This document shows positions 20,132 to 30,746 of a stretch of 33,437 bases of DNA, in pieces; position 1 is the stretch's first letter, and the number at the start of each line of letters is the position of its first letter. The notes beneath the pieces were generated by a model that had not been told where the DNA came from, searched no databases, and worked only from the letters and a program-made list of their open reading frames with translations. A program made the translations under genes and the position numbers. This DNA comes from an uncultured Eubacteriales bacterium (GTDB taxonomy: Bacteria; Bacillota; Clostridia; Lachnospirales; Lachnospiraceae): contig OMZX01000038.1 of NCBI GenBank assembly GCA_900315665.1, forward strand, positions 1 to 33,437, given 5' to 3'.

Positions 20132-20500
20132 TTATGCCTTGTTGTTCGGGTCATAGGTGTAGTCATCGACCTCAACCTTATCAACCTGCTGATGAGGGCC
20201 GAGTACAGAAACCATCTTTACGGGCTCTGAATAATTATTGATGCAGAAGTGAATCTCCTTCGGCTCTATATGGATCATATCACCCTCGGCAAGCGTATGG
20301 ACAACACCATCTACGACAATATCAATCTTGCCGTTGAGGATATAGAAATTTTCCTCCATGATATTATGATAGTGCGCCTTGAAGCTCTGTCCCGGCATGA
20401 ACTGTACCAGGGCAAAGTTGAGACGGGGACCCTTCATGAGATACTTGGGACCATTATCTCCATAACGATATTCAAAATCCTTTTCATTAACCTTAAACAT
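20132..20500 (-). CDS. Small single-domain cupin protein in the lsr operon
   Basis: A 122-residue cupin. Motif 1 is intact as GQSFKAHYHNIMEENFYILNG: His43, His45 and Glu50 are the expected metal ligands. Motif 2 contributes His84 in EPKEIHFCIN. Such proteins bind a divalent metal and act as isomerases, dioxygenases or sugar-binding proteins. The gene starts 14 bases after lsrK stops, in the same orientation, so it is the third gene of lsrR-lsrK-cupin. LsrG, which isomerises phospho-DPD before LsrF, is missing from this locus; the cupin is a plausible functional substitute, by inference only. The ATG at 20500 was preferred over an in-frame upstream ATG at 20536 inside lsrK because AAGAAGG lies just before it. 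Confidence 0.8.
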   Translation of the reverse strand: MFKVNEKDFEYRYGDNGPKYLMKGPRLNFALVQFMPGQSFKAHYHNIMEENFYILNGKIDIVVDGVVHTLAEGDMIHIEPKEIHFCINNYSEPVKMVSVLGPHQQVDKVEVDDYTYDPNNKA

Positions 20501-20514
20501 AGTAACCTTCTTTC

Positions 20515-22077
20515 TCAGACACCGGGTGCTGCCCACATATGCTTTGTCAAGCCTTCATTTGCCAGGTCGAGCTGTACCTTATATACTTTTCTCCATGTAT
20601 CATACATTTCCATATAAACCTTATGATTTTCTGGATTTGGCTGATAAACATGAACGATATGTACCAGCTTCTTAGAGGTTTCCGAAATATCCTTATAAAT
20701 GCCGACACCGTGTCCTGCGAGGATGGCAGCGCCGAGCGCAGTGGCTTCCTTAACGGCAGGAACCTTCACCGGAATACCGAGAACATCGGCAAGAATCTGG
20801 CTCCAGAGTGGACTCTTCGAAGCGCCGGATGCGAAGACAACCTCTGATGGCATATTGCCGGTAGATTCCCGGACGAGATCCATATGGCCCTTTGTCACAA
20901 GAGCTGTGTTTTCAAGTATAGCCTTATAAAATGTATATCTTGAGAACTTCTCCGGGTCGAGTTCGAAATTTGTAAACGTCGGGGCTGCATGCTTCCAGGA
21001 TATAAAATTCATGACATCTGAAAATGTGCACATCATGCCATAGCAGCCGGCGGGAATATCCTTCGCTTTTTCATTCATGAGATCATAAGGATCTCTGCCG
21101 GTTTTTTGAGCCTCTTCCTTTTCCAACTGGCAGAAGCCATCACGGAACCAACGCATGACTAGACCTGGCTTGAATGCAAGGGCTTCATACTGCCATACAT
21201 TCGGGACTGCATGACAGTTCACACGAACACGACACTGATCGTCGGTTTTTGCTTCTCCGGTATTGTATTCATATTGCCAGAAGCTGCCACCGAAGATTGC
21301 CGCTTCATTCGGATTTACAACGCCAACACCGATACAACCAAGCTGTGCGTCACCGCCGCCTACAACAACCGTCGTTCCCTCGGTAAGACCGGTTTCCTTT
21401 GCTGCTTTTTCAGTCACTTTTCCGGCAATCGTGCCTGATTCCCGTACTTCAGGAAAGATATCTGTTTTTAATCCGCATCGCTCAAGAATAGAAGGATCCC
21501 AGCTTCTTGTTTTCAAATCCATAAGTCCTGATGTGGAGCCATTGGATGGTTCTACTGCCAGGATGCCTGTCAGTTTATAAATCAGCCAGTCATTGAACAT
21601 GCCGATATGGGCTACTCTTTCATAGACATCCGGGAGCTTGTTCTTTACCCAGAGAAGACGAGGGAGCGCATCGAGTGCATAGGATTGGCCGCTTTCGAGG
21701 TAAAGCTCCTTTTCGAGCCCGGGGAACTTATGAATCAGCTCGACAACCTCATCGTTTGAACGGGCGTCTACATTGGCACATGCCCAGATTTCCTTGCCTT
21801 CGCGATCATACAGGACGATGCCTTCTCGCATACAAGTTGTCGAAATTGCTGCGATTTCAGAAGATTCAATACCACTTTCTTTAATTGCGCCTGCGATACA
21901 TTGCTTTGCGAGCTTCCAGTCATTGACCCAGTCGAAGTTCATACTTCCCGGGTATTTCGGGTCTTCGATGTGAGACCACTCCTGCTGTGAACAAGCAATC
22001 TGATTGCCTTCAAGATCGAACAGCACCGCGCGGATGCTTCCGGTTCCGGCATCAATTGCCATAAGATACTTTGCCAT
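20515..22077 (-). CDS. lsrK: Autoinducer-2 kinase LsrK
   Basis: A 520-residue FGGY-family kinase, close to the length of E. coli LsrK. It phosphorylates imported AI-2 (DPD) in the cytoplasm, trapping it and making the LsrR inducer. The N-terminal phosphate loop is MAIDAGTGSIRAVLFD, the substrate region carries CANVDARSNDEVVEL, and the ATP site has VVGGGDAQLGCIGVG (about 238-252) and FASGASKSPLWSQILADVLG near 430. The start follows AAGGAGGT. It lies between lsrR and a cupin gene with 14-base gaps on both sides. General FGGY membership is certain; the AI-2 specificity is supported by lsrR, lsrACDB and lsrF next door. Confidence 0.92.
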   Translation of the reverse strand: MAKYLMAIDAGTGSIRAVLFDLEGNQIACSQQEWSHIEDPKYPGSMNFDWVNDWKLAKQCIAGAIKESGIESSEIAAISTTCMREGIVLYDREGKEIWACANVDARSNDEVVELIHKFPGLEKELYLESGQSYALDALPRLLWVKNKLPDVYERVAHIGMFNDWLIYKLTGILAVEPSNGSTSGLMDLKTRSWDPSILERCGLKTDIFPEVRESGTIAGKVTEKAAKETGLTEGTTVVVGGGDAQLGCIGVGVVNPNEAAIFGGSFWQYEYNTGEAKTDDQCRVRVNCHAVPNVWQYEALAFKPGLVMRWFRDGFCQLEKEEAQKTGRDPYDLMNEKAKDIPAGCYGMMCTFSDVMNFISWKHAAPTFTNFELDPEKFSRYTFYKAILENTALVTKGHMDLVRESTGNMPSEVVFASGASKSPLWSQILADVLGIPVKVPAVKEATALGAAILAGHGVGIYKDISETSKKLVHIVHVYQPNPENHKVYMEMYDTWRKVYKVQLDLANEGLTKHMWAAPGV

Positions 22078-22091
22078 AATACCTCCTTATA

Positions 22092-22997
22092 TTATAGGAT
22101 CTGCTTTGCTGTTTCTTCGTCCGTAATTAATGCATCCAAATATCCGCCACGAAGGGCTGCCCGGATGATATTGATTTTGTTCGGACCACCGGCAATGCCG
22201 ATCACATTTTTTAATGTTTTTAATGTTTCTAGCGATGTGCTGACGAGACGGTTATCCAGGTCGGTTTTTACCGACTCACCATTTTCGTCGATAAAGTGTG
22301 TTAAAATATCTCCGACTGCGTTCTGCATCTGGAGATACGTGAAATCATTTTTGTTCATAATGCCGTTTGTAATGATCGTGGCATCAGGATTCATACCGCC
22401 GAGTCCTACAATTGACAAGGAAGAGAGCTGAATCATTCGACGAATTTCCTGAACACTCGGCTCCTGCAGAATCGCTTTGCAGGCTTCTTCAGAAGAAATG
22501 ACCAGTGGCGTTGGAAACAAGTGAAGACGCGCATTGAAAATGGATGAAACTGCATTTGGAAGATAGTAGTTCACGCCACCGGTCAGGGAGACAACTGATA
22601 TCGGGACATCTGTCATTGCTGCAAGATGGTTCAGCACTCTGGAAGGCGTATCGCCGTAACCCATGTTAATAAACGCATTCTCTCCGATGATATCTTCTAT
22701 ATAATTGGCACTTGCCAGAGCAAGAAGCTCATTTAATGTGGAAGGATCCGACGGAGTTGGGATCACCAAAACCTTCTTTAAGCCCCATTTTTCTCCGATT
22801 TTCTCTTCCAGGGAAATATCCATACCTTTTCCGGTGGAAATTCTGAACTGAATCACCCCAGTTTCCTTCGCGGTATCAAGAATGCGGATTACTTTCATTC
22901 GCGAGAGGCCAAGCTTATCAGAGATGGCCTGCTGGGTCATCCCTTCTATATAGTAATACCATGCAATTTTCAGGACGAGTTCATTTTCATATTTCAT
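22092..22997 (-). CDS. lsrR: LsrR-type SorC/DeoR-family repressor of the AI-2 locus
   Basis: A 301-residue regulator. Residues about 5-55 hold the helix-turn-helix (YYIEGMTQQAISDKLGLSRM then VIRILDTAKETG). The rest is the sugar-phosphate-binding domain of SorC proteins, with SLTGGVNYY, GLGGMNPDA and IGIAGGPNKINIIRAALRGG near the C-terminus, the region that contacts phosphorylated ligand. In E. coli LsrR represses the lsr genes until phospho-AI-2 binds. Its position, divergent from lsrA and followed by lsrK, is as in the enteric system. A canonical ribosome binding site is not evident (only GGGG about 12 bases upstream), which suits low-level expression. The start coordinate may be off by one base. 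Confidence 0.92.
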   Translation of the reverse strand: MKYENELVLKIAWYYYIEGMTQQAISDKLGLSRMKVIRILDTAKETGVIQFRISTGKGMDISLEEKIGEKWGLKKVLVIPTPSDPSTLNELLALASANYIEDIIGENAFINMGYGDTPSRVLNHLAAMTDVPISVVSLTGGVNYYLPNAVSSIFNARLHLFPTPLVISSEEACKAILQEPSVQEIRRMIQLSSLSIVGLGGMNPDATIITNGIMNKNDFTYLQMQNAVGDILTHFIDENGESVKTDLDNRLVSTSLETLKTLKNVIGIAGGPNKINIIRAALRGGYLDALITDEETAKQIL

Positions 22998-23016
22998 ACA
23001 TAAAACCCCGAACGCA

Positions 23017-23085
23017 CAAATGTATCATATGGTAAACAAATATAATTATTTCATAATTTGAACATTTGTCAAGGATCCGAACAAA
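23017..23085 (-). promoter_or_regulatory. lsrR promoter region with repeated ACAAAT/ATTTGT half-sites
   Basis: On the minus strand TTGACA (complement of 23067-23072) can serve as the lsrR -35 and runs straight into ACAAATGTTCA (complement of 23059-23069). That 11-mer also lies in the lsrB promoter. Further related units are ACAAATGT (from 23017) and ACAAAT (about 23036-23041). The -10 is not clear. These are candidate LsrR sites giving autoregulation; coordinates are good to about one base. Confidence 0.4.
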
Positions 23086-23174
23086 ATCCTAACAAGAATC
23101 ATATAAAATATATAATACAAGCTTAGAAAAATCAATAATATTATTCAAATTCACAATAAAAGTTCACATCGAGC

Positions 23175-23202
23175 TTGACATTGACACAACACATGATATA
23201 CT
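23175..23202 (+). promoter_or_regulatory. Sigma-A promoter of lsrACD
   Basis: A perfect TTGACA at 23175-23180, a 16-base spacer and TATACT at 23197-23202. A second TTGACA follows directly at 23181-23186. Confidence 0.8.
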
Positions 23203-23212
23203 GAAAATGCTA

Positions 23213-23237
23213 AAAATGTTCGTGACATAAACATTTT
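23213..23237 (+). promoter_or_regulatory. Candidate LsrR operator at lsrA
   Basis: Dyad AAAATGTT (23213-23220), 9-base spacer, AACATTTT (23230-23237), placed just after the expected transcription start. The arm length and spacer equal those of the dyad at the lsrB promoter, and it contains ATGTTC, part of the shared 11-mer. Confidence 0.45.
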
Positions 23238-23293
23238 ATTCAATATTTGAATAGAGATCTGCGAATAAATATATGATAGGAAAGGAGAACAGC

Positions 23294-24808
23294 ATGAGCC
23301 AAAAGGCAGAATCAGAGAAGCTGCTTGTTGTAAAAGACATCAAAAAGCAATTTGGCTTGAATGTTGTGCTGAAGGGGATTGACCTTTCGGTCGCTTCAGG
23401 AGAAGTTCTAGCGCTGGTCGGCGGAAACGGCGCCGGCAAGTCGACACTGATGAAGATCATCATGGGTATCTATCAGCCGGATTATGGAGAAGTTTATATC
23501 GGGGGAGACCGTATCACATCGTTTAAGCCGATTGTTTCACTGGAAAAAGGAATATACATGGTTCCGCAGGAGCCGATGCTTTTTCCGAATATGACTGTCG
23601 AAGAGAATATCCTGATAGGCTTCAAGGAAAGCCATGCATCATTGGACGAGAGACTTCGCAAAATTATGGCGGATATTGGTTGGAATCTGGACCTTACCAG
23701 AAAGGCACTTAGCCTTACGATCGCAGAACAGCAGATCGTTGAGCTTTTACGAGGCCTTATGCGTAACGCAAGACTTCTGATCCTGGATGAGCCGACATCT
23801 TCACTGACCTTTGATGAGGTTCTTTCACTTTTTAAGGTTATCAAGGGACTGAAGGAAAAAGGCATCGGTATCATTTACATCACGCACAGGCTGAGTGAGG
23901 TATTTGTCATTGGCACACATGTAGCCATTATGAGAGACGGCCATATTACTTTACAGGGACCGATTGCGGATTTTAACCGTGACATGCTGGTAAAGGGACT
24001 TTTGCCAGATAACATGCAGGATATCGAAAAAGAAGATGTCGCATATGAGAAGGTTGATTATGAAGGCAAGAAACCTGTTCTCACGCTGGATCATTTTTCA
24101 GGATATGGCTTTAAGGATGTTTCCTTCGATGTATATCCGGGAGAGATCCTTGGCCTGGCAGGCCTGGTTGGCGCTGGCCGTACGGAACTTGCGACGACGA
24201 TATTCGGAAGGGAAAAGCCTTTAGGCGGAAAGGTCTTTCTGAACGGACAGGATGTTACCGGCCTCAGCACGAGAAAAATCATTGATGCAGGTATCAATTA
24301 TGTACCGGAGGATCGTCATCTGAATGGACTTTTCGGTATGGATTCCGTCGCAGCTAATACAACATCGTCTTTCCTCCATAACAGGGCTATGGGCAATGCG
24401 TTCCTGGACCGGAAGAAGGAATATGAGATTACCGAAAAATATATCAAGGATTTTAGAACGAAGGTGACGGGACAGGATCAGGAGGCAGGCAGCCTCTCTG
24501 GCGGTAACCAGCAGAAGATCGTCATCAGCCGCTGCCTCGCGACAAATCCGAAGGTTGTTATCCTGGATGAACCGACAAGAGGTATCGATGCGGCAGCCAG
24601 AGGAGATGTTTATTCTATCATCCTTGAGCTTAAGAAACAGGGCGTGGCGATCATCCTGATCTCTTCCGATATGGAAGAAATCGTAGAGCTGTCTGACCGG
24701 GCTGTTGTTATGTACCAGGGATATAAAAAGGATGAGTTTAAGAAGGAAGAGATTACACAGCCTGCCCTCATGAACGCTTCCTTTAATATCACGGAGAAGG
24801 AGGCCTGA
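23294..24808 (+). CDS. lsrA: LsrA: AI-2 ABC importer ATP-binding protein
   Basis: A 504-residue protein with two ABC domains, as in sugar importers of the CUT2 type. Domain 1 has Walker A GGNGAGKST at residues 43-51 and Walker B LLILDEPTSSL; its signature is the loose LSLTIAEQQ. Domain 2 has the relaxed Walker A GLVGAGRTEL, the family segment YVPEDRHLNGLFG, signature LSGGNQQKIVISR and Walker B VVILDEPTRGID. It powers import of AI-2 through LsrC and LsrD. ATG 23294 is used because AAAGGAG precedes it; the in-frame ATG at 23273 lies before that site. It is divergent from lsrR and 4 bases from lsrC. Confidence 0.93.
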   Translation: MSQKAESEKLLVVKDIKKQFGLNVVLKGIDLSVASGEVLALVGGNGAGKSTLMKIIMGIYQPDYGEVYIGGDRITSFKPIVSLEKGIYMVPQEPMLFPNMTVEENILIGFKESHASLDERLRKIMADIGWNLDLTRKALSLTIAEQQIVELLRGLMRNARLLILDEPTSSLTFDEVLSLFKVIKGLKEKGIGIIYITHRLSEVFVIGTHVAIMRDGHITLQGPIADFNRDMLVKGLLPDNMQDIEKEDVAYEKVDYEGKKPVLTLDHFSGYGFKDVSFDVYPGEILGLAGLVGAGRTELATTIFGREKPLGGKVFLNGQDVTGLSTRKIIDAGINYVPEDRHLNGLFGMDSVAANTTSSFLHNRAMGNAFLDRKKEYEITEKYIKDFRTKVTGQDQEAGSLSGGNQQKIVISRCLATNPKVVILDEPTRGIDAAARGDVYSIILELKKQGVAIILISSDMEEIVELSDRAVVMYQGYKKDEFKKEEITQPALMNASFNITEKEA

Positions 24809-24812
24809 CCCG

Positions 24813-25832
24813 ATGAACGGACTTAAAAAATTTCTAAAAGCGCGTGAGGCCGGAAGTATTATTTTCCTGATTCTTCTGTTCTTTATCGTAGGATGCATGA
24901 ATCCGGCGTTCCTGAAGCCGGCCAGCCTGCTGGCCTGCCTTAATGATTCTGTTGTATTTACGCTTTTGGCAGCGGGCATCGCGTTTGTGATTCTGACCGG
25001 TGAAATCGATGTATCGATCGGCGCTACACTTGGCATGTCGGCTGCGATTGCAGCGACGATTCTTCGGGATGGTGGAAACTGGGGCATCGCACTCGTTGCA
25101 GCACTGATTACCGGCGCGTTGATCGGCCTTGTCAATGGATGGGGCGTTTCTGTGATGAACATTCCATCCCTGATTTTCACACTCGGTGTAAATGGCGTTG
25201 TTCGAGGCATGATTTATGTGTTTACCAAGGGCGCTTGGGTTGAAAATCTTCCTGGCGAATTCACAAAGCTTGCGAATGTGATGCTGGTTGGCCAGCTGAC
25301 GGTTTTCTATGTTATTGCCATTGTGATCGTTTTAATCTGTAATTACATTACGAAGAAAACAAAACGCGGCAGATATTTTACTGCAGTTGGTGATAATATT
25401 TCCGGCGCGGCACTTGTCGGTATTCCGACAACAAAGACGAAGATTCTTGCTTACGTTCTGTGTGGTGTATTTGCTTCTCTTGCGGGTATGGCATATACAT
25501 CAAGAATCGGATTTGTCACACCGATCGCCGGCAATGGCTATGAAATGAAAGCAATCGCTGCATGCGTACTTGGTGGTGTAGCACTGACCGGCGGCCAGGG
25601 ATCACTCTTCGGCGCAGCGATAGGCGCTATCATTATGTCTTCCATCAGCCGTATCCTCATCTTCATGGGCTTCTCATCGGATTATGATAATACGATAACC
25701 GGTGTCATGCTGATTGTTATCGTAGTGGTTACTACAGTTATGCAGAACCGTGAGATCGTTAGAAACCATCACGACATGCTTCTTGCGAGAACTAATAAGG
25801 AAGAAGTGAAGAAGGAGGTGGCAGAGGCATGA
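24813..25832 (+). CDS. lsrC: LsrC: AI-2 ABC importer permease
   Basis: A 339-residue CUT2-type permease with about nine or ten membrane helices. The family pattern is clear: ILTGEIDVSIGATLGMSAAIAA (helices 2-3), then LINGW-like VNGWGVSVMNIPSLIFTLGV, and the C-terminal AACVLGGVALTGGQGSLFGAAIGA that contacts the ATPase. It forms the membrane channel with LsrD. It starts 4 bases after lsrA ends, and its stop overlaps the lsrD start (ATGA), so the three are translationally coupled. The sequence alone would fit ribose or other sugar permeases; the AI-2 assignment rests on lsrB, lsrK, lsrR and lsrF. Confidence 0.9.
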   Translation: MNGLKKFLKAREAGSIIFLILLFFIVGCMNPAFLKPASLLACLNDSVVFTLLAAGIAFVILTGEIDVSIGATLGMSAAIAATILRDGGNWGIALVAALITGALIGLVNGWGVSVMNIPSLIFTLGVNGVVRGMIYVFTKGAWVENLPGEFTKLANVMLVGQLTVFYVIAIVIVLICNYITKKTKRGRYFTAVGDNISGAALVGIPTTKTKILAYVLCGVFASLAGMAYTSRIGFVTPIAGNGYEMKAIAACVLGGVALTGGQGSLFGAAIGAIIMSSISRILIFMGFSSDYDNTITGVMLIVIVVVTTVMQNREIVRNHHDMLLARTNKEEVKKEVAEA

Positions 25833-26839
25833 ACAAGTCCTTTTCGGAGAAATTTAAGGGGTTCTTAAAGAGCTGGGAATTTGTTCTCATTATGATTCTC
25901 CTTCTGGAAGTGGTTGTATTTGCCACAAAGAATCCGAAATTTTTGAAGCCGGCTGTTTTGCTGGGCAGTATCAATGATATCATTTCCATCTGTATCATTT
26001 CGGTATTTGTTACATTCTGTATGATTACAGGCGGTATCGATATCCAGGTTGGTTCGATCGTCGGCCTGACATCCATCATTATCGGCGTTTCATGGCAGGA
26101 TTTTGGATTTAATATCTGGGGCGCTGCAGTCATGGGCATCATTGTTGCAGCACTTTGCGGTGCACTTTCTGGTTTCTTCGTCGCATATTGCGATGTACAG
26201 CCGATGGTTGTCACACTGGGCGGCAGCTTCCTGTATTCAGGCATCGCACTTTTAATCTCAAATCTGTCAGCGACAGCGAGCTATAAGGGTATCAGCGGAT
26301 TCCCGGACAGCTTCAAATTCATTTCAAAATTTCGTTTCTTTGGCGTTTTACCTTTGCAGGTGGTAATTTTTGTTGTATTAACGATTATTGCGTATATTCT
26401 TCTCAATAAAACGAAATATGGCAGGATGCTCTTCCTGGTTGGCGCGAATCGTCAGGCAGCAGAATATTCCGGTATTAATGCAAGACTTGTTACGATGGTA
26501 ACCTATATCCTTTCTGCCATGTCTGCATCAATCGCCGGCATCATCCTGACCTCCTATCTCGGAACCGCAAAGTCTGATCTTGGTTCTACCTTTACATTGC
26601 AGATCATTACAGCATGCGTTCTCGGCGGTACACTCTCCACCGGCGGCAAGGGTTCTGCAGTTGGTACTGCACTGGCGGCTGTCGTAATCGGCGTTCTGAA
26701 GTTTGGATTACCACTTGCCTTCGGCGTAAACCAGCAGTACATGGATATTCCGGTTGGTGCGCTGCTTCTGATCGTTGTAATCGTGAGAGCAGCATTAAAT
26801 AACCAGAAGGTTATTGCATTTTTTCACAAAAAGAAGTAA
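25829..26839 (+). CDS. lsrD: LsrD: AI-2 ABC importer permease
   Basis: A 336-residue permease paired with LsrC, with about ten membrane helices. Family segments include MITGGIDIQVGSIVGLTSII, GALSGFFVAYCDVQPMVVTLGG and the coupling region ITACVLGGTLSTGGKGSAVGTALAA. It overlaps lsrC by four bases (ATGA). The start follows AAGGAGGTGG inside lsrC. It is separated from lsrB by 177 bases that carry a second promoter, so the binding protein can be expressed independently of the membrane components. Confidence 0.9.
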   Translation: MNKSFSEKFKGFLKSWEFVLIMILLLEVVVFATKNPKFLKPAVLLGSINDIISICIISVFVTFCMITGGIDIQVGSIVGLTSIIIGVSWQDFGFNIWGAAVMGIIVAALCGALSGFFVAYCDVQPMVVTLGGSFLYSGIALLISNLSATASYKGISGFPDSFKFISKFRFFGVLPLQVVIFVVLTIIAYILLNKTKYGRMLFLVGANRQAAEYSGINARLVTMVTYILSAMSASIAGIILTSYLGTAKSDLGSTFTLQIITACVLGGTLSTGGKGSAVGTALAAVVIGVLKFGLPLAFGVNQQYMDIPVGALLLIVVIVRAALNNQKVIAFFHKKK

Positions 26840-26878
26840 TATCCTTACGGATGATTAAAATAACCAAAAAAAATCAGA

Positions 26879-26907
26879 TTGAAAAGCGAATATTTGTACA
26901 TTTTAAT
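26879..26907 (+). promoter_or_regulatory. Internal promoter for lsrB
   Basis: TTGAAA at 26879-26884, a 17-base spacer and TTTAAT at 26902-26907, giving a leader of about 100 bases. Confidence 0.6.
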
Positions 26908-26921
26908 GGTACAAATGTTCA
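26892..26921 (+). promoter_or_regulatory. Candidate LsrR operator over the lsrB promoter
   Basis: A perfect dyad ATTTGTAC (26892-26899), 9-base spacer, GTACAAAT (26909-26916) brackets the -10 box. The right half continues into ACAAATGTTCA (26911-26921), which is also found in the lsrR-lsrA spacer. A bound repressor would exclude RNA polymerase. The identity of the repressor is inferred from context. Confidence 0.55.
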
Positions 26922-27016
26922 GGGTTTTCTTAGAAAGCATTAAAAGTGCACAATAAAAACTGTAATTTATGCATCAAAAATATACAAAACGATGCATGCA
27001 ATATAAGGAGGTTTAT

Positions 27017-28213
27017 ATGAAAAAAAGAATTGTAGCTATGGCACTGGCTGCCACTATGGTGGCATCCCTCGCAGCGTGCGGATCTTCTTCTTCGGGATCT
27101 GCCGAGACAACGAAGGCAGCCGAGACAACAAAGGCAGCTGAGACAACAGCAGCACCCGCAGCGACAGAAGCCGCTAAGGAAACGACGGCAGCGGCAGCCG
27201 AAGCATCCGGTGATGTAAAGTCTGTAGAAGGCATGACGATTGCATTTATTCCGAAGGTAACTGGTAACGCATTCTTCGAGTCTGCAAACAAGGGCGCTCA
27301 GAAATATGCTGAGAAGTGGGGCATCACAGTAAATTATACTGGTTCACCGAACGCGGCTGTAGCGGATGAGGTACAGGTTGTTAACCAGGCAGCTGCTTCC
27401 GGCGCTGATGGTATCTGCCTTTCCTCTGTAGATGCTACTGGTCTTGATGATGCATTAAAGAGTGCAACGGATGCCGGCGTTGTTGTAGGAACATGGGATT
27501 CCGACGTTTCTACAGATGCAAGAACATTGATGGTATCCCAGGGTACTCCGGAGATTCTTGGCAAGATGCTCGTTGATATGGGTGCTGATGCTCTTACAAA
27601 GCGCGGCAAGGATATCGCGAAGGATCCGATCAAGTATTGCTGGCATTATTCAAACGCAACAGTAACCGACCAGAATTCATGGCAGGTTGCTGGTGAGAAG
27701 TATATCAAGGAAACCTATCCGAACTGGGAAAATGTTGCTCCGGATAACTATTATTCCGAGCAGGATGCAGAGAAGGCAGTTACTGTAGGTGCTTCTGTCC
27801 TTGATGCACATTCTGACATCGATCTGATCATCTGCAACGACTCTACAGCACTTCCGGGCCAGGCTAAGGCTGCCCAGAACAAGGGTCTTACAAAGAACGA
27901 TGTTACAATCACTGGCTTTGCTTCTCCGCAGTCCATGAAGGAATATGCAGAGGCTGATGTCCTTGAAGAGTGGGGACTCTGGGATTGTGGCGTACAGGGC
28001 GCTATGGGATGCTATCTGACAGCTTATATCGCTGCAGGCAATACCGTTCATGTAGGCGACAAGATCAACATTCCGGAAATCGGTGAGGTTGAGGTTCTTG
28101 CCAATGACTCCATCTCCGAGGGTGCAACGACTGCTGATGAGAACAATGGTGTTGTTCTTCTTCCGGAAAGACTTACCTTCAATAAGGACAATGTAAATGA
28201 TTATGATTTCTAA
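27017..28213 (+). CDS. lsrB: LsrB: AI-2-binding lipoprotein
   Basis: A 398-residue lipoprotein. The signal peptide ends in the lipobox LAAC at Cys21; a low-complexity Thr/Ala/Glu linker with TTKAAE repeats runs to about residue 66. The binding domain follows. Ligand residues known from Salmonella LsrB can be placed: Lys80 in AFIPKVTGNAFF, Asp in GTWDSDV, the Asp-Gln pair in VTDQNSW, and Pro in STALPGQAKA. The position matching the last Ala ligand seems to be Gln, depending on alignment. It captures AI-2 outside the cell for LsrACD. The start ATG follows AAGGAGG; an upstream in-frame ATG at 26969 lacks one. It has its own promoter. Confidence 0.9.
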   Translation: MKKRIVAMALAATMVASLAACGSSSSGSAETTKAAETTKAAETTAAPAATEAAKETTAAAAEASGDVKSVEGMTIAFIPKVTGNAFFESANKGAQKYAEKWGITVNYTGSPNAAVADEVQVVNQAAASGADGICLSSVDATGLDDALKSATDAGVVVGTWDSDVSTDARTLMVSQGTPEILGKMLVDMGADALTKRGKDIAKDPIKYCWHYSNATVTDQNSWQVAGEKYIKETYPNWENVAPDNYYSEQDAEKAVTVGASVLDAHSDIDLIICNDSTALPGQAKAAQNKGLTKNDVTITGFASPQSMKEYAEADVLEEWGLWDCGVQGAMGCYLTAYIAAGNTVHVGDKINIPEIGEVEVLANDSISEGATTADENNGVVLLPERLTFNKDNVNDYDF

Positions 28214-28235
28214 CTTTTAAGCTAGAATCGATATA

Positions 28236-28287
28236 CTGCTCCGGTGGGTCAGACCCCAGAGCAGCTTTAGAACCGAGGTTGTCGGTT
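28236..28287 (+). promoter_or_regulatory. Two hairpins between lsrB and lsrF
   Basis: Stem CTGCTC...GAGCAG (28236-28264) with inner GGGT/ACCC, then AACCG (28271-28275)/CGGTT (28283-28287). There is no T-run. They probably stabilise the lsrB end of the message or damp read-through to lsrF rather than terminate it fully. Confidence 0.4.
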
Positions 28288-28333
28288 CGCAGGAAAAGTA
28301 AAAATGGATCTACAGCTTTGAAAGGAGAAAATT

Positions 28334-29227
28334 ATGGCAGATCTTGATGGCTTAAAGGTAGCACACAATTATTATGTGGATGTTCCTTTTCAGAATAATA
28401 AAGGATTTTATGTGAAGGGTGCGAACGCACTGGACTGGGGCATGAAGAAGCATCTTGCCCATATTTTTAATCCAAAGAGCGGAAATACGGTTATGTTTGC
28501 CTTTGATCATGGCTATTTCATGGGTGCAGCAGCGGGACTTGAAAGACTGGATATCGAGATTCCGAAGCTGATTCCGAATATCGACGTTCTGATGGCAACA
28601 AGGGGCGGACTTCGGAGCTGCATCGATCCGGCACTGATCGGCGATAAGGGCATTGCACTTCGTGCAACATCAGGATCGTCTATGCTGGATGAGGATCTGT
28701 CACATGAAGCACTCGCTGTTGATGCTATGGAAGCAAGCAGAATGAATGCAGATTGCCTTGCAATCCAGACGTTCATTGGTGCAGATGGTGAACTTTCCTC
28801 TCTTGATAATCTTGCAAAGGCTGTAAATTTCGGACAGCAGTATTCGATTCCGATTCTTGGCGTTGTTGCTGTTGGTAAGCAGATGGAAAGAACACCGAGA
28901 TTCTTCAAGCTGGCAACACGTATTCTTGCAGAACTTGGTGCAAACATTGTAAAAACCTATAATTGTGAAAACTTCGATGAGGTTGCTGCGGCTTGTCCGG
29001 TTCCGATTGTTGTAGCCGGCGGTAAGAAGGTTCCTGAGAAGGAAGCGCTTGAGATGGCTTATAGTGTCATTCAGAATGGGGCACATGGCGTTGATATGGG
29101 ACGTAATATCTTCCAGTCGCTTCATCCGGTTGAGATGAGCAAGGCAGTTCGCATGATCGTTCATGAGAAGGCAACTGCAAAGGAAGCATATGAGTTCTAC
29201 GAGGATGCGATTCATCCTGTTCAGTAA
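28334..29227 (+). CDS. lsrF: LsrF: 3-hydroxy-5-phosphonooxypentane-2,4-dione thiolase
   Basis: A 297-residue class I aldolase-fold protein, near the 291 residues of E. coli LsrF and similar throughout. Shared features include MADLD at the start, KGANALDWGMKKHLAHIFNP, MFAFDHGYFMGA, the VKTY segment carrying the active-site Lys, CPVPIVVAGGKKVPEKEAL and GAHGVDMGRNIFQSLHPV. It transfers an acetyl group from the isomerised AI-2 phosphate to CoA, giving acetyl-CoA and dihydroxyacetone phosphate. It starts behind AAAGGAG and follows lsrB, as in enterics. The lsrG gene that normally follows is replaced by a mutarotase-like gene. Confidence 0.95.
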   Translation: MADLDGLKVAHNYYVDVPFQNNKGFYVKGANALDWGMKKHLAHIFNPKSGNTVMFAFDHGYFMGAAAGLERLDIEIPKLIPNIDVLMATRGGLRSCIDPALIGDKGIALRATSGSSMLDEDLSHEALAVDAMEASRMNADCLAIQTFIGADGELSSLDNLAKAVNFGQQYSIPILGVVAVGKQMERTPRFFKLATRILAELGANIVKTYNCENFDEVAAACPVPIVVAGGKKVPEKEALEMAYSVIQNGAHGVDMGRNIFQSLHPVEMSKAVRMIVHEKATAKEAYEFYEDAIHPVQ

Positions 29228-29345
29228 CTGGTATATTGGAAAGACAGTAGGGAGCACTTTCAGATATGAGAGTGCTCTTTGCTGATTTAAAGCTATTTAT
29301 GCGGTATGATTTATAAAACCGTGCGTATGTACGAAGGAAGTAGCT

Positions 29346-29774
29346 ATGTTAAAAGGAATTCCGAAACTTTTGAGTCCCGAGCTTTTGAAAGTGCTGAGTG
29401 AAATGGGACATGGGGATCGGCTGGTGATTGCAGACGGTAATTTTCCGTGCGAAAGCATCGGTAAGGATGCGATCGTGATTCGCTGTGACGGCCATGGAGT
29501 CAATGAAATATTGGATGCCGTGCTGAAGGTGATGCCGCTGGATCAGTTTGTCGAGAAATCAGCATTTCTCATGAATCCGCCGGAGAAGGATGCAAAGGAG
29601 CCGGAAGTATGGGCTTCTTACAAGGAGACAATCAAAAAGACAGAGGATATTAATCGACTTTCTGTCATTGAAAAACCGGATTTTATGGCTGAGGCGAGAA
29701 AAGCATATTGCATTATTGCCTCTTCAGAGACGGCTCTTTATGCAAATATTATGCTCCAAAAGGGATGTGTCTAA
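29346..29774 (+). CDS. FucU/RbsD-family mutarotase in the lsr locus
   Basis: A 142-residue protein with the family's N-terminal signature LKGIPKLLSPELLKVLSEMG, then HGD with the catalytic His22, ADGNFP, and IRCDGHGVNEILDAVLKVMPLD. FucU and RbsD speed anomer interconversion of free sugars and form ring-shaped oligomers. No fucose or ribose genes are near. It lies 118 bases after lsrF, with a GAAGGA ribosome binding site. AI-2 precursor DPD exists in open and cyclic anomeric forms, so a mutarotase could supply the form used by LsrK or LsrF, or replace LsrG; this is inference. The family call is firm. Confidence 0.85.
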   Translation: MLKGIPKLLSPELLKVLSEMGHGDRLVIADGNFPCESIGKDAIVIRCDGHGVNEILDAVLKVMPLDQFVEKSAFLMNPPEKDAKEPEVWASYKETIKKTEDINRLSVIEKPDFMAEARKAYCIIASSETALYANIMLQKGCV

Positions 29775-29791
29775 AAGTATTTCTATAGGGA

Positions 29792-29820
29792 TGGAAATTT
29801 AACATATAACGTGTTAAAAT
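29792..29820 (+). promoter_or_regulatory. Possible fba promoter with dyad
   Basis: TGGAAA at 29792-29797, 17-base spacer and TAAAAT at 29815-29820. Between and over the -10 lies the dyad TTTAACA (29798-29804)/TGTTAAA (29812-29818), a possible operator of unknown factor. Its orientation is opposite to a Rex site. Confidence 0.4.
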
Positions 29821-29876
29821 ATAAACAATCTCTGTAGAGAGGGACCTTTCATCACGTTTATGTAGGAGGAAACAGA

Positions 29877-30746
29877 ATGTTAGTCAATGCAAAAGAAATG
29901 CTGGACAAGGCACTTGCCGGCCATTATGCAGTGCCGCACTTCAATATCAATGACCTCGAGTGGACAAAGGCTGTTTTAACAGCAAGTGAGGAGATGAAGT
30001 CCCCGGTTATCGTTGGTGTTTCTACCGGTGCCGGTAAGTATATGACAGGCTTTAAGACCGTTGCCGCTATGGTACGCGCGATGCATGATTCTCTCGGCAT
30101 CACAGTACCGGTTGCCCTCCATCTGGATCATGGTACCTATGAAGCATGCTATGATTGTATCGATGCTGGTTTCACATCGATCATGTTTGATGGCTCTCAT
30201 TTCGATATAGACGAGAATGTTGCGAAGACAAAGGAGCTTGTTGCTGCTGCTCACAAGGCAGGACTTTCGATCGAGGCAGAGGTAGGCGGTATCGGCGGAA
30301 CCGAGGATGGTGTTACCTCCGCGGGTGAAAAGGCAGATCCGAAGCAGTGCAAGATGATCGCTGACCTTGGCGTGGATTTCCTCGCTGCAGGCATCGGAAA
30401 CATTCATGGTATTTATCCGGCTGACTGGCAGGGACTTGATTTTAACGTTCTTGCAGAGATTAAGAAGGAAATCGGTGAGCTTCCGATGGTTCTTCACGGT
30501 GGTACTGGTATCCCGGAGGATCAGATCAAGAAAGCTATCTCTCTTGGTGTTTCCAAGATCAATGTAAACACAGAGCTTCAGCTTGTATTTGCTAAGGCTA
30601 CGAGAGAGTACATCGAGGCCGGTAAAGATAAAGAGGGTAAGGGCTATGATCCTCGTAAGCTCTTAAAGCCGGGCTATGAGGCTATGGTAGAAGAGTGCAA
30701 GTATAAGATTAAGGAATTTGGCTCTGAAGGCAAGGCAAACGCATAA
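29877..30746 (+). CDS. fba: Class II fructose-bisphosphate aldolase
   Basis: A 289-residue zinc aldolase, joining DHAP and glyceraldehyde 3-phosphate or the reverse. Zinc and substrate residues lie in ALHLDHGTYEACYDCIDAGF (about 80-100), EAEVGGIGGTEDG, GNIHGIYP (His ligand), VLHGGTGIPEDQI and SKINVNTELQ. It starts behind AGGAGGAAACAG. Placed after lsrF, it can consume the DHAP made from AI-2, although it may simply be the cell's glycolytic enzyme: it has its own promoter and a strong terminator. Tagatose-bisphosphate aldolases share this fold; the sequence reads more like the glycolytic type. Confidence 0.88.
   Translation: MLVNAKEMLDKALAGHYAVPHFNINDLEWTKAVLTASEEMKSPVIVGVSTGAGKYMTGFKTVAAMVRAMHDSLGITVPVALHLDHGTYEACYDCIDAGFTSIMFDGSHFDIDENVAKTKELVAAAHKAGLSIEAEVGGIGGTEDGVTSAGEKADPKQCKMIADLGVDFLAAGIGNIHGIYPADWQGLDFNVLAEIKKEIGELPMVLHGGTGIPEDQIKKAISLGVSKINVNTELQLVFAKATREYIEAGKDKEGKGYDPRKLLKPGYEAMVEECKYKIKEFGSEGKANA

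Follow-up and report, generated by a model that had tools for sequence, protein, structure and literature searches.

How does a bacterium that carries an lsr locus without lsrG get from the product of the autoinducer 2 (AI-2) kinase LsrK to the substrate of the thiolase LsrF? Isomerization of phosphorylated AI-2 (P-DPD) is the role of LsrG, a protein of the ABM family. The question is raised by a 33,437-nucleotide stretch of DNA (the window) from an uncultured Eubacteriales bacterium of the Lachnospiraceae. With modest confidence, we read this stretch as containing a complete locus for AI-2 import and degradation, with a metal-dependent candidate enzyme, a cupin, probably taking the place of LsrG between LsrK and LsrF. 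LsrACDB would import AI-2; LsrK, judged from its family, would phosphorylate it to P-DPD; the cupin would isomerize P-DPD, probably through a metal-held enediol as in the cupin sugar-phosphate isomerases; and LsrF, again judged from its family, would use CoA to split the product into acetyl-CoA and DHAP.

The locus

The cupin-lsrK-lsrR genes (minus strand) diverge from lsrACDBF-fucU-fba (plus strand), and all are present in the window (Table 1). Open reading frames and family matches agree with the gene list in a preliminary description of this DNA (lsrR-lsrK-cupin, minus; lsrA-C-D-B-F, a FucU-like gene and fba, plus). One gene call is corrected: the cupin likely begins with the ATG of position 20500, in place of the GTG of position 20536.

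Membership in the lsr group is indicated by LsrK and LsrF, which both pass their equivalog cut-offs, and by the presence of LsrACDB and a divergent LsrR, ordered as in Escherichia coli. For these other five proteins the corresponding models are the best matches, each below its cut-off, and the names LsrR, LsrA, LsrC, LsrD, and LsrB are supported by synteny. Identities to the E. coli K-12 proteins are 50.5% (LsrK), 52.4% (LsrF), 40.4% (LsrB), 42.3% (LsrA), and 33.0% (LsrR).

Table 1. Features of the lsr locus, in window coordinates
Feature	Position	Strand	Remarks
cupin (Cupin_2, 122 aa), candidate phospho-DPD isomerase	20132..20500	-	14 nt after lsrK
lsrK, AI-2 kinase	20515..22077	-	NF008187, 773 bits (cut-off 528 exceeded)
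lsrR-like repressor	22092..22997	-	Sugar-bind PF04198; best NCBIfam match LsrR, 207.7 bits (under cut-off 486)
lsrR/lsrA divergent intergenic region	22998..23272		promoter-like sites, both strands
lsrA, transporter ATPase	23273..24808	+	best NCBIfam match LsrA, 549 bits (under cut-off 586)
lsrC, permease	24813..25832	+	best NCBIfam match LsrC, 232.8 bits (under cut-off 388)
lsrD, permease	25829..26839	+	best NCBIfam match LsrD, 247.9 bits (under cut-off 500)
lsrB, AI-2 binding protein	26969..28213	+	best NCBIfam match LsrB, 298.7 bits (under cut-off 384)
lsrF, 3-hydroxy-5-phosphonooxypentane-2,4-dione thiolase	28334..29227	+	NF006081, 386 bits (over cut-off 297)
18-bp hairpin 3' of lsrF, possible terminator or processing site	29245..29284	+	fold -28 kcal/mol, weak T tract
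FucU/RbsD-family mutarotase, patchy accessory	29346..29774	+	PF05025, 140 bits
fba, class II fructose-bisphosphate aldolase	29877..30746	+	376 bits (cut-off 343)

The divergent intergenic region contains one promoter-like site for each direction (23175-23202, plus; 23072-23045, minus), with 11 of 12 positions matching in each, by pattern match only; the scan returned 30 sites in the region covered versus 20.3 expected. The hairpin that follows lsrF is not among the predictions of a terminator scan of the region.

The locus had been described as rearranged. However, E. coli K-12 displays the same divergent order, lsrK-lsrR (minus) and lsrACDBFG (plus), and shares LsrK, R, A, C, D, B, and F with the window. 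The true differences are the absence of lsrG, the cupin gene after lsrK, and the fucU and fba genes after lsrF.

Search for LsrG

A PF03992 (ABM) search of the 97.6%-complete genome gave a best score of 11.6 bits (E 0.65), below the cut-off, and a profile made from eight LsrG proteins retrieved nothing from the same genome at E 0.01. Both searches bear out the earlier statement that the locus lacks lsrG, and also answer whether a homologue lies elsewhere in this genome: none was detected. LsrG likewise was found in none of 80 named LsrF loci and in none of 15 LsrF stretches at the level of the order. Weak ABM matches are present in four other genomes of the order (five matches, 24.6-38.1 bits), on contigs other than those with lsrF; two were tested as LsrG candidates and rejected, since their scores of 40.5 and 43.8 bits do not reach the cut-off for LsrG (135).

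Linkage of the cupin to lsrK and lsrF

The cupin gene lies directly after lsrK, on the same strand, in all 63 named LsrF loci with an intact lsrK, as found by a locus scan that favors relatives of the window; contig ends cut the lsrK side of the remaining 17. It also follows lsrK in 12/12 intact-lsrK LsrF loci from the 295 genomes of the order. The cupin family occurs in 12 of these 295 genomes (E≤1e-20), at an lsr locus every time, and no member outside lsr loci was found in them at this threshold; it is present in none of the 280 genomes that lack an over-cut-off LsrF (Fisher 6e-19, relatedness ignored). Six loci (L037, L038, L071, L075, L084, and L087) contain the cupin, lsrK, and lsrF with no transporter or LsrR in the stretch, and occupy four positions in the LsrK tree; in one of them, L038, the genes form a co-directional lsrK-cupin-lsrF group. 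Distance correlations (cupin/LsrK, 0.68; cupin/LsrF, 0.72) add little, since they do not exceed that of LsrK and LsrA (0.72).

The arrangement had been termed clostridial, a label that proved too narrow: the cupin form also is found on contigs that bear the labels Actinomycetota, Spirochaetota, Fusobacteriota, and Succinivibrio. In Rhizobiaceae, and in other loci borne on plasmids, the slot directly after lsrK is occupied by an LsrG homologue. The Sinorhizobium-type locus resembles the window in having a small gene directly after lsrK, but there the gene encodes an LsrG (ABM) homologue instead of a cupin; its annotation includes a class II aldolase, and lsrF is absent from the stretch.

Other contexts also were encountered. 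LsrF is encoded without lsrK in two loci (L027 and L040), and beside dhaK/dhaL on Bacteroidota plasmids. Weak cupin matches on Pantoea and Rhizobium plasmids are located away from lsr genes, and viral contigs gave no match when scanned with the cupin.

Cupin sequence and structure

The protein (Cupin_2, 61.1 bits; cut-off 27.2) is a cupin superfamily barrel with a metal site of the 3-His/1-Glu type predicted from sequence. Residues H43, H45, E50, and H84, which from the cupin motif we take to be the metal ligands, are invariant in 43/43 cupins. The predicted model (pLDDT 90) resembles the phosphomannose isomerases 7zvy and 7zvm (activity as given in the entry titles), with which it has in common the cupin barrel, in those entries a sugar-phosphate isomerase fold. 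The Foldseek probability is 1.00, but identity is about 21-26%; the cupin profile matches these entries, which rank among its closest relatives of solved structure, at E 3e-15 to 3e-14. The motif HYHxxxxExFY is common to the window cupin and 7zvy. The conserved N-terminal residues 12-26 lie outside this alignment, because the match begins at profile position 30. By sequence, quercetinase is the better match: the top PDB entry is a quercetin 2,3-dioxygenase, which has the same HYHxxxxExFY motif, so fold and motif leave the reaction unfixed.

Two further positions are conserved in the main cupin set: E49 (40/40) and R26 (39/40). Both are altered in the two cupins sampled from LsrG-bearing loci, and both are retained in Deinococcus, for which LsrG was not observed. 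K108 and M48 are altered in the enteric cupins and also in Deinococcus, so part of this residue contrast is plain divergence.

Roles considered for the cupin

Replacement of LsrG by the cupin is made plausible by the linkage to lsrK, the failure to detect LsrG, the retention of the cupin with lsrK and lsrF in loci that have no transporter in the stretch, the Rhizobiaceae slot, the invariant ligands, and the isomerase relatives. A broader proposal appears finely balanced, and is advanced only tentatively: the cupin family might be a widespread, perhaps ancestral, phospho-AI-2 isomerase of lsr systems, analogous to LsrG through non-orthologous replacement; enteric bacteria then would have taken up LsrG, and the cupin would have diverged in the enterics that retained it.

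Replacement is not a strict rule, since cupin and LsrG occur together in two Salmonella loci (L145 and L146) and in E. coli MS 196-1 (L154); these loci rule out strict mutual exclusion. The Salmonella locus is like the window in that lsrK is directly followed by a cupin of the same family (tblastn, 44.5%), which from the order of the locus tags probably is STM4071; unlike the window, it contains lsrG and an epimerase, and its cupin differs at R26, M48, E49, and K108. In enteric lsrG mutants, lsr transcription is raised, according to excerpts of two reports (PMC2728841, PMC8016206). This phenotype and the coexistence show that the divergent enteric cupin is not a full substitute for LsrG. Nor does this cupin follow every LsrK: the E. 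coli K-12, Klebsiella, and Enterobacter loci have LsrG only, and at L153 (G556) an over-cut-off LsrK (589 bits) is followed by a different cupin, on a 6.8-kb contig in which neither LsrF nor LsrG was seen. Excerpts of two older papers imply lsrG in Gram-positive carriers of lsrB (PMC2561040) and in Bacillus cereus (PMC3420918).

The loci with both proteins, along with a Deinococcus lsrK-cupin pair that lacks a nearby lsrF, would fit a cupin that acts on AI-2 or phospho-AI-2 in another manner (epimerizing, hydrating, or detoxifying a side form), with isomerization occurring spontaneously or through LsrF. We consider this unlikely, though worth serious attention: the cupin is present in every LsrG-less, intact-lsrK LsrF locus examined among the named and order-level sets, an LsrG homologue fills the same slot in Rhizobiaceae, and the cupins that coexist with LsrG are those that differ at R26 and E49.

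The close pairing with lsrK, maintained even where lsrF is not nearby, also might reflect a non-catalytic binder or sensor of AI-2 or its phosphate that tunes LsrK or LsrR. This is improbable, given the invariance of the putative metal ligands and the presence of the cupin in loci with no LsrR in the stretch. Less probable again is a quercetinase-like dioxygenase that cleaves AI-2-derived diketones: quercetin 2,3-dioxygenase entries are the best PDB profile matches, but the family here comes mainly from gut Clostridia, which mostly are anaerobes. Moreover, the cupin travels with LsrF, whose substrate is given in a review section as a five-carbon phosphate.

The FucU-like gene and fba

The FucU-like protein, although its gene adjoins lsrF here and likewise in Lachnospiraceae bacterium JC7 (L050, 11 nt gap), is hardly credible as the missing isomerase, being too patchy (at least 7 of the 67 named loci with at least 2.5 kb after lsrF; 0/15 order loci) while LsrG is in 0/80. 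It misses the FucU equivalog cut-off (106.5 versus 141) and exceeds that of RbsD_FucU (PF05025; cut-off 25); where present, it may aid AI-2 ring opening. The preliminary description had proposed a non-homologous protein for the LsrG step, and had made the conservation of both cupin and mutarotase a check. Genomic context favors the cupin on both counts, and the FucU-like protein on neither.

The fba gene had been viewed as a member that drains DHAP. It is absent from all 107 other loci counted, and a paralogue that is 82% identical lies elsewhere in the genome (G000:C113); fba is therefore rejected as part of the system, and most likely is a neighbor. Outside this count, locus L137 has an LsrF-like gene (275 bits, below cut-off), a distant kinase, and a class II aldolase (141 bits).

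Implications

AI-2 is a signal common to different species, and one survey (PMC12503165) predicts LsrB-type receptors for 43 human gut species of Firmicutes. As outlined in a review, the account of what follows AI-2 phosphorylation is based on studies of LsrG in enteric bacteria. Context-based naming of an AI-2-operon cupin by annotators is already known: an excerpt on Bacillus sp. B87 (PMC8876208) gives the RAST name "Cupin domain protein in autoinducer 2 (AI-2)-related operon." This protein shares the annotated AI-2 context with the window cupin, a likeness by name only, and the name gives no function.

Should the cupin prove to be the isomerase, bacteria of this kind would be able to clear AI-2 fully to acetyl-CoA and DHAP without LsrG, and scoring of lsr function by LsrG would overlook those that carry the cupin. 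The Salmonella cupin, a hypothetical protein if it is indeed STM4071, then would gain a candidate role.

The locus and its gene order

The window is contig C23 of a Lachnospiraceae-type genome (G000) that also encodes LuxS. According to ORFs and family scans, the minus strand encodes cupin-lsrK-lsrR and the plus strand encodes lsrA-C-D-B-F, followed by a FucU/RbsD gene and a class II fba. LsrK, LsrF and Fba pass their curated equivalog cut-offs; for LsrR, A, C, D and B an Lsr model is the top match, each under its cut-off. The closest named LsrF loci are those of Lachnospiraceae bacterium JC7 and Oribacterium sp. C9 (LsrF 84% identical in both). The preliminary description called the locus rearranged, but its gene order is that of E. 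coli K-12, so it is not. The reported lack of lsrG stands: two different searches detected no LsrG in the window's genome.

Between lsrF and fucU lies a strong 18-bp hairpin with a weak T tract, missing from the terminator scan output, which may be an end or processing point of the lsr transcript.

Coordinates of the features discussed (L numbers denote the loci or stretches compared)
Feature	Coordinates	Remarks
Cupin gene	window, 20132-20500	minus strand
Hairpin between lsrF and fucU	window, 29245-29284	
Class II fba beside lsr	window, 29877-30746	plus strand
Class II fba paralogue	G000:C113:34315-35169	
PF03547 permease between lsrF and fucU	L055:10957-11895; L102:11207-12139	
lsr locus, L. 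paracasei plasmid	L138:2002-14626	
LsrF after dihydroxyacetone kinase genes	L139:9291-11873; L142:9224-11894	Parabacteroides and Aureibacter plasmids
Small Cupin_2 protein after lsrK	L153:1391-1804	genome G556
Sinorhizobium-type class II aldolases	L155:2914-4164; L156:2910-4163; L157:2912-4165	from annotation

Linkage of the cupin to lsrK

Scanning genome contigs with the window LsrF identified 236 relatives, and the best 80 form the named set, which consequently favors near kin of the window. The cupin lies beyond lsrK in all 63 named loci with an intact lsrK (an ORF scoring above 300 bits and followed by 400 bases or more); in the remaining 17, a contig end cuts the lsrK side. A phmmer search with E. 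coli LsrG found LsrG in none of the 80 stretches around these loci. Within the order, 15 of 295 genomes encode an LsrF over the cut-off. Twelve of these encode the cupin, in every case at their lsr loci; the other order genomes scanned give no match at E ≤ 1e-20. Of the three that lack it, two have an LsrF gene with no lsrK in the stretch read (19.9 and 13.5 kb), and in the third LsrF sits on a contig of 3.3 kb. With the LsrG profile, 11 of the 15 gave no match at E 0.01 and four gave weak matches. Among 398 genomes of the phylum, the window's alone has the cupin at E ≤ 1e-15.

All 80 cupins compared (the window and 79 other loci, including near-identical or duplicate loci such as L033/L034, L036/L127 and L145/L146) lie on the strand of lsrK, 9 to 297 nt away from it when gene starts are set by rule. 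Six loci (L037, L038, L071, L075, L084 and L087) contain lsrK, cupin and lsrF without LsrA, LsrB or LsrR in the stretch, although the L037 contig stops 0.75 kb past the cupin. On the LsrK tree these loci occupy four positions, one of them in Succinivibrio; L038, an lsrK-cupin-lsrF array in a single direction, is a flagged long branch. Hence the cupin travels with the processing enzymes, not with the transporter.

The cupin search of a plasmid collection returned nine records, two of them weak and distant from lsr. A plasmid of L. paracasei, classified as conjugative, has an lsr locus in which rbsD follows the cupin, flanked on both sides by transposase genes. Plasmids of Parabacteroides and Aureibacter have LsrF after dihydroxyacetone kinase genes; lsrK annotation is absent from both stretches.

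FucU and Fba

Seven of the 67 named loci having 2.5 kb of room carry a FucU-family gene no more than about 1.5 kb beyond lsrF, a lower bound because the phmmer query scored L. paracasei RbsD at only 19 bits; none of the 15 order loci carries one. (L097, a short contig outside the 67, also has one.) In L050, lsrF and fucU are 11 nt apart, and L055 and L102 have a permease gene between the two, possibly a further AI-2-linked transporter. A role for FucU in AI-2 ring opening would fit, but is a guess. The window fba begins 102 nt after fucU, and fba is absent from the 107 further loci counted, of which 80 are named, 15 come from the order and 12 are annotated ones. The genome's two class II paralogues share 82% protein identity.

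LsrG and cupin elsewhere

In some other loci, the slot that the cupin takes in the window is filled by a relative of LsrG. An ABM/LsrG homologue (42-44% identity to E. coli LsrG) directly follows lsrK in S. meliloti pSymB, Rhizobium sp. WL3, and a plasmid labelled Roseateles. Coordinates indicate the same arrangement in Shinella, Ensifer, Alloyangia, Tritonibacter and Paracoccus records; in Roseicitreum, the homologue lies about 6.6 kb from lsrK on the opposite strand. The first three loci have an annotated class II aldolase and no annotated lsrF in the stretch; the S. meliloti aldolase matches PF00596. LsrG is the commoner lsrK partner in the plasmid collection because 53 of its 79 records with LsrK are Sinorhizobium.

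Other loci run counter to a simple replacement of LsrG. Salmonella loci L145 and L146 carry both cupin and lsrG. A cupin about 70% DNA-identical to Salmonella's is encoded by 125 of 5,426 E. coli genomes; the one neighborhood read (L154) contains lsrR, lsrK, cupin, lsrG and an epimerase. We take STM4071 to be the Salmonella cupin, from tag order beside STM4072 lsrK. In excerpted sources, STM4071 appears with lsr genes, annotated as hypothetical, in the profile of a fabR mutant (PMC4804515), and the lsr group is given as STM4071-80 (PMC11000858). Raised lsr transcription in lsrG mutants, as excerpted (PMC2728841), argues that the enteric cupin is no simple stand-in for LsrG there.

In the phylum, two of 398 genomes have an LsrK over the cut-off: the window's and G556. 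The latter's 6.8-kb contig (LsrK 589 bits, adjoining transporter-like genes) has in the slot after lsrK a small Cupin_2 protein that the window cupin does not match in phmmer; neither LsrF nor LsrG was seen on it, and this system may have a different substrate. A Deinococcus stretch has lsrK-cupin, with neither lsrF nor LsrG seen. Passages from two papers, one stating that lsrB-positive strains (some Bacilli and Clostridia included) were verified by presence of lsrDCARKG (PMC2561040), the other a figure legend placing lsrG at the end of the Bacillus cereus system (PMC3420918), are evidence against a Gram-positive rule of cupin without LsrG.

The neighborhood is already known to annotators: the excerpted RAST table for Bacillus sp. 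B87 lists a "Cupin domain protein in autoinducer 2 (AI-2)-related operon" and a thiolase, with LsrG unmentioned in that excerpt (PMC8876208). In the open literature searched, no paper combines lsrK, lsrF and cupin, the Bacillus sp. B87 paper alone combines cupin and lsrK, and the excerpts assign this cupin no function; specialised papers on LsrB in Clostridia, on LsrG and on LsrF may mention it.

Residues, fold and chemistry

The set H43, H45, E50 and H84 (three His, one Glu) is invariant in 43 of 43 cupins; from the cupin motif, these are presumably metal ligands. The main set has 38 conserved positions, each kept in at least 38 of 40 cupins. Thirteen of these are changed in one or both cupins from LsrG-bearing enteric loci, including R26, M48, E49, I76, L100 and K108. 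The Deinococcus cupin retains R26 and E49 while M48, I76, L100, K108 and K19 are changed, which leaves R26 and E49 as the only positions that distinguish cupins of LsrG-bearing loci, a contrast drawn from two related enteric sequences.

Profile matches are led by quercetinase (9e-18), with cupin phosphomannose isomerases next (3e-15); both share HYHxxxxExFY. The structure model (pLDDT 90.3) has the uncharacterised cupin 3h8u, Thermus cupin 1v70 and these phosphomannose isomerases among its top matches, along with TM1459 and KdgF. According to an excerpted review, LsrG isomerises P-DPD (phospho-DPD), and LsrF then yields DHAP and acetyl-CoA (PMC8016206). As candidate for the isomerase step, the cupin would act via a metal-held enediol.
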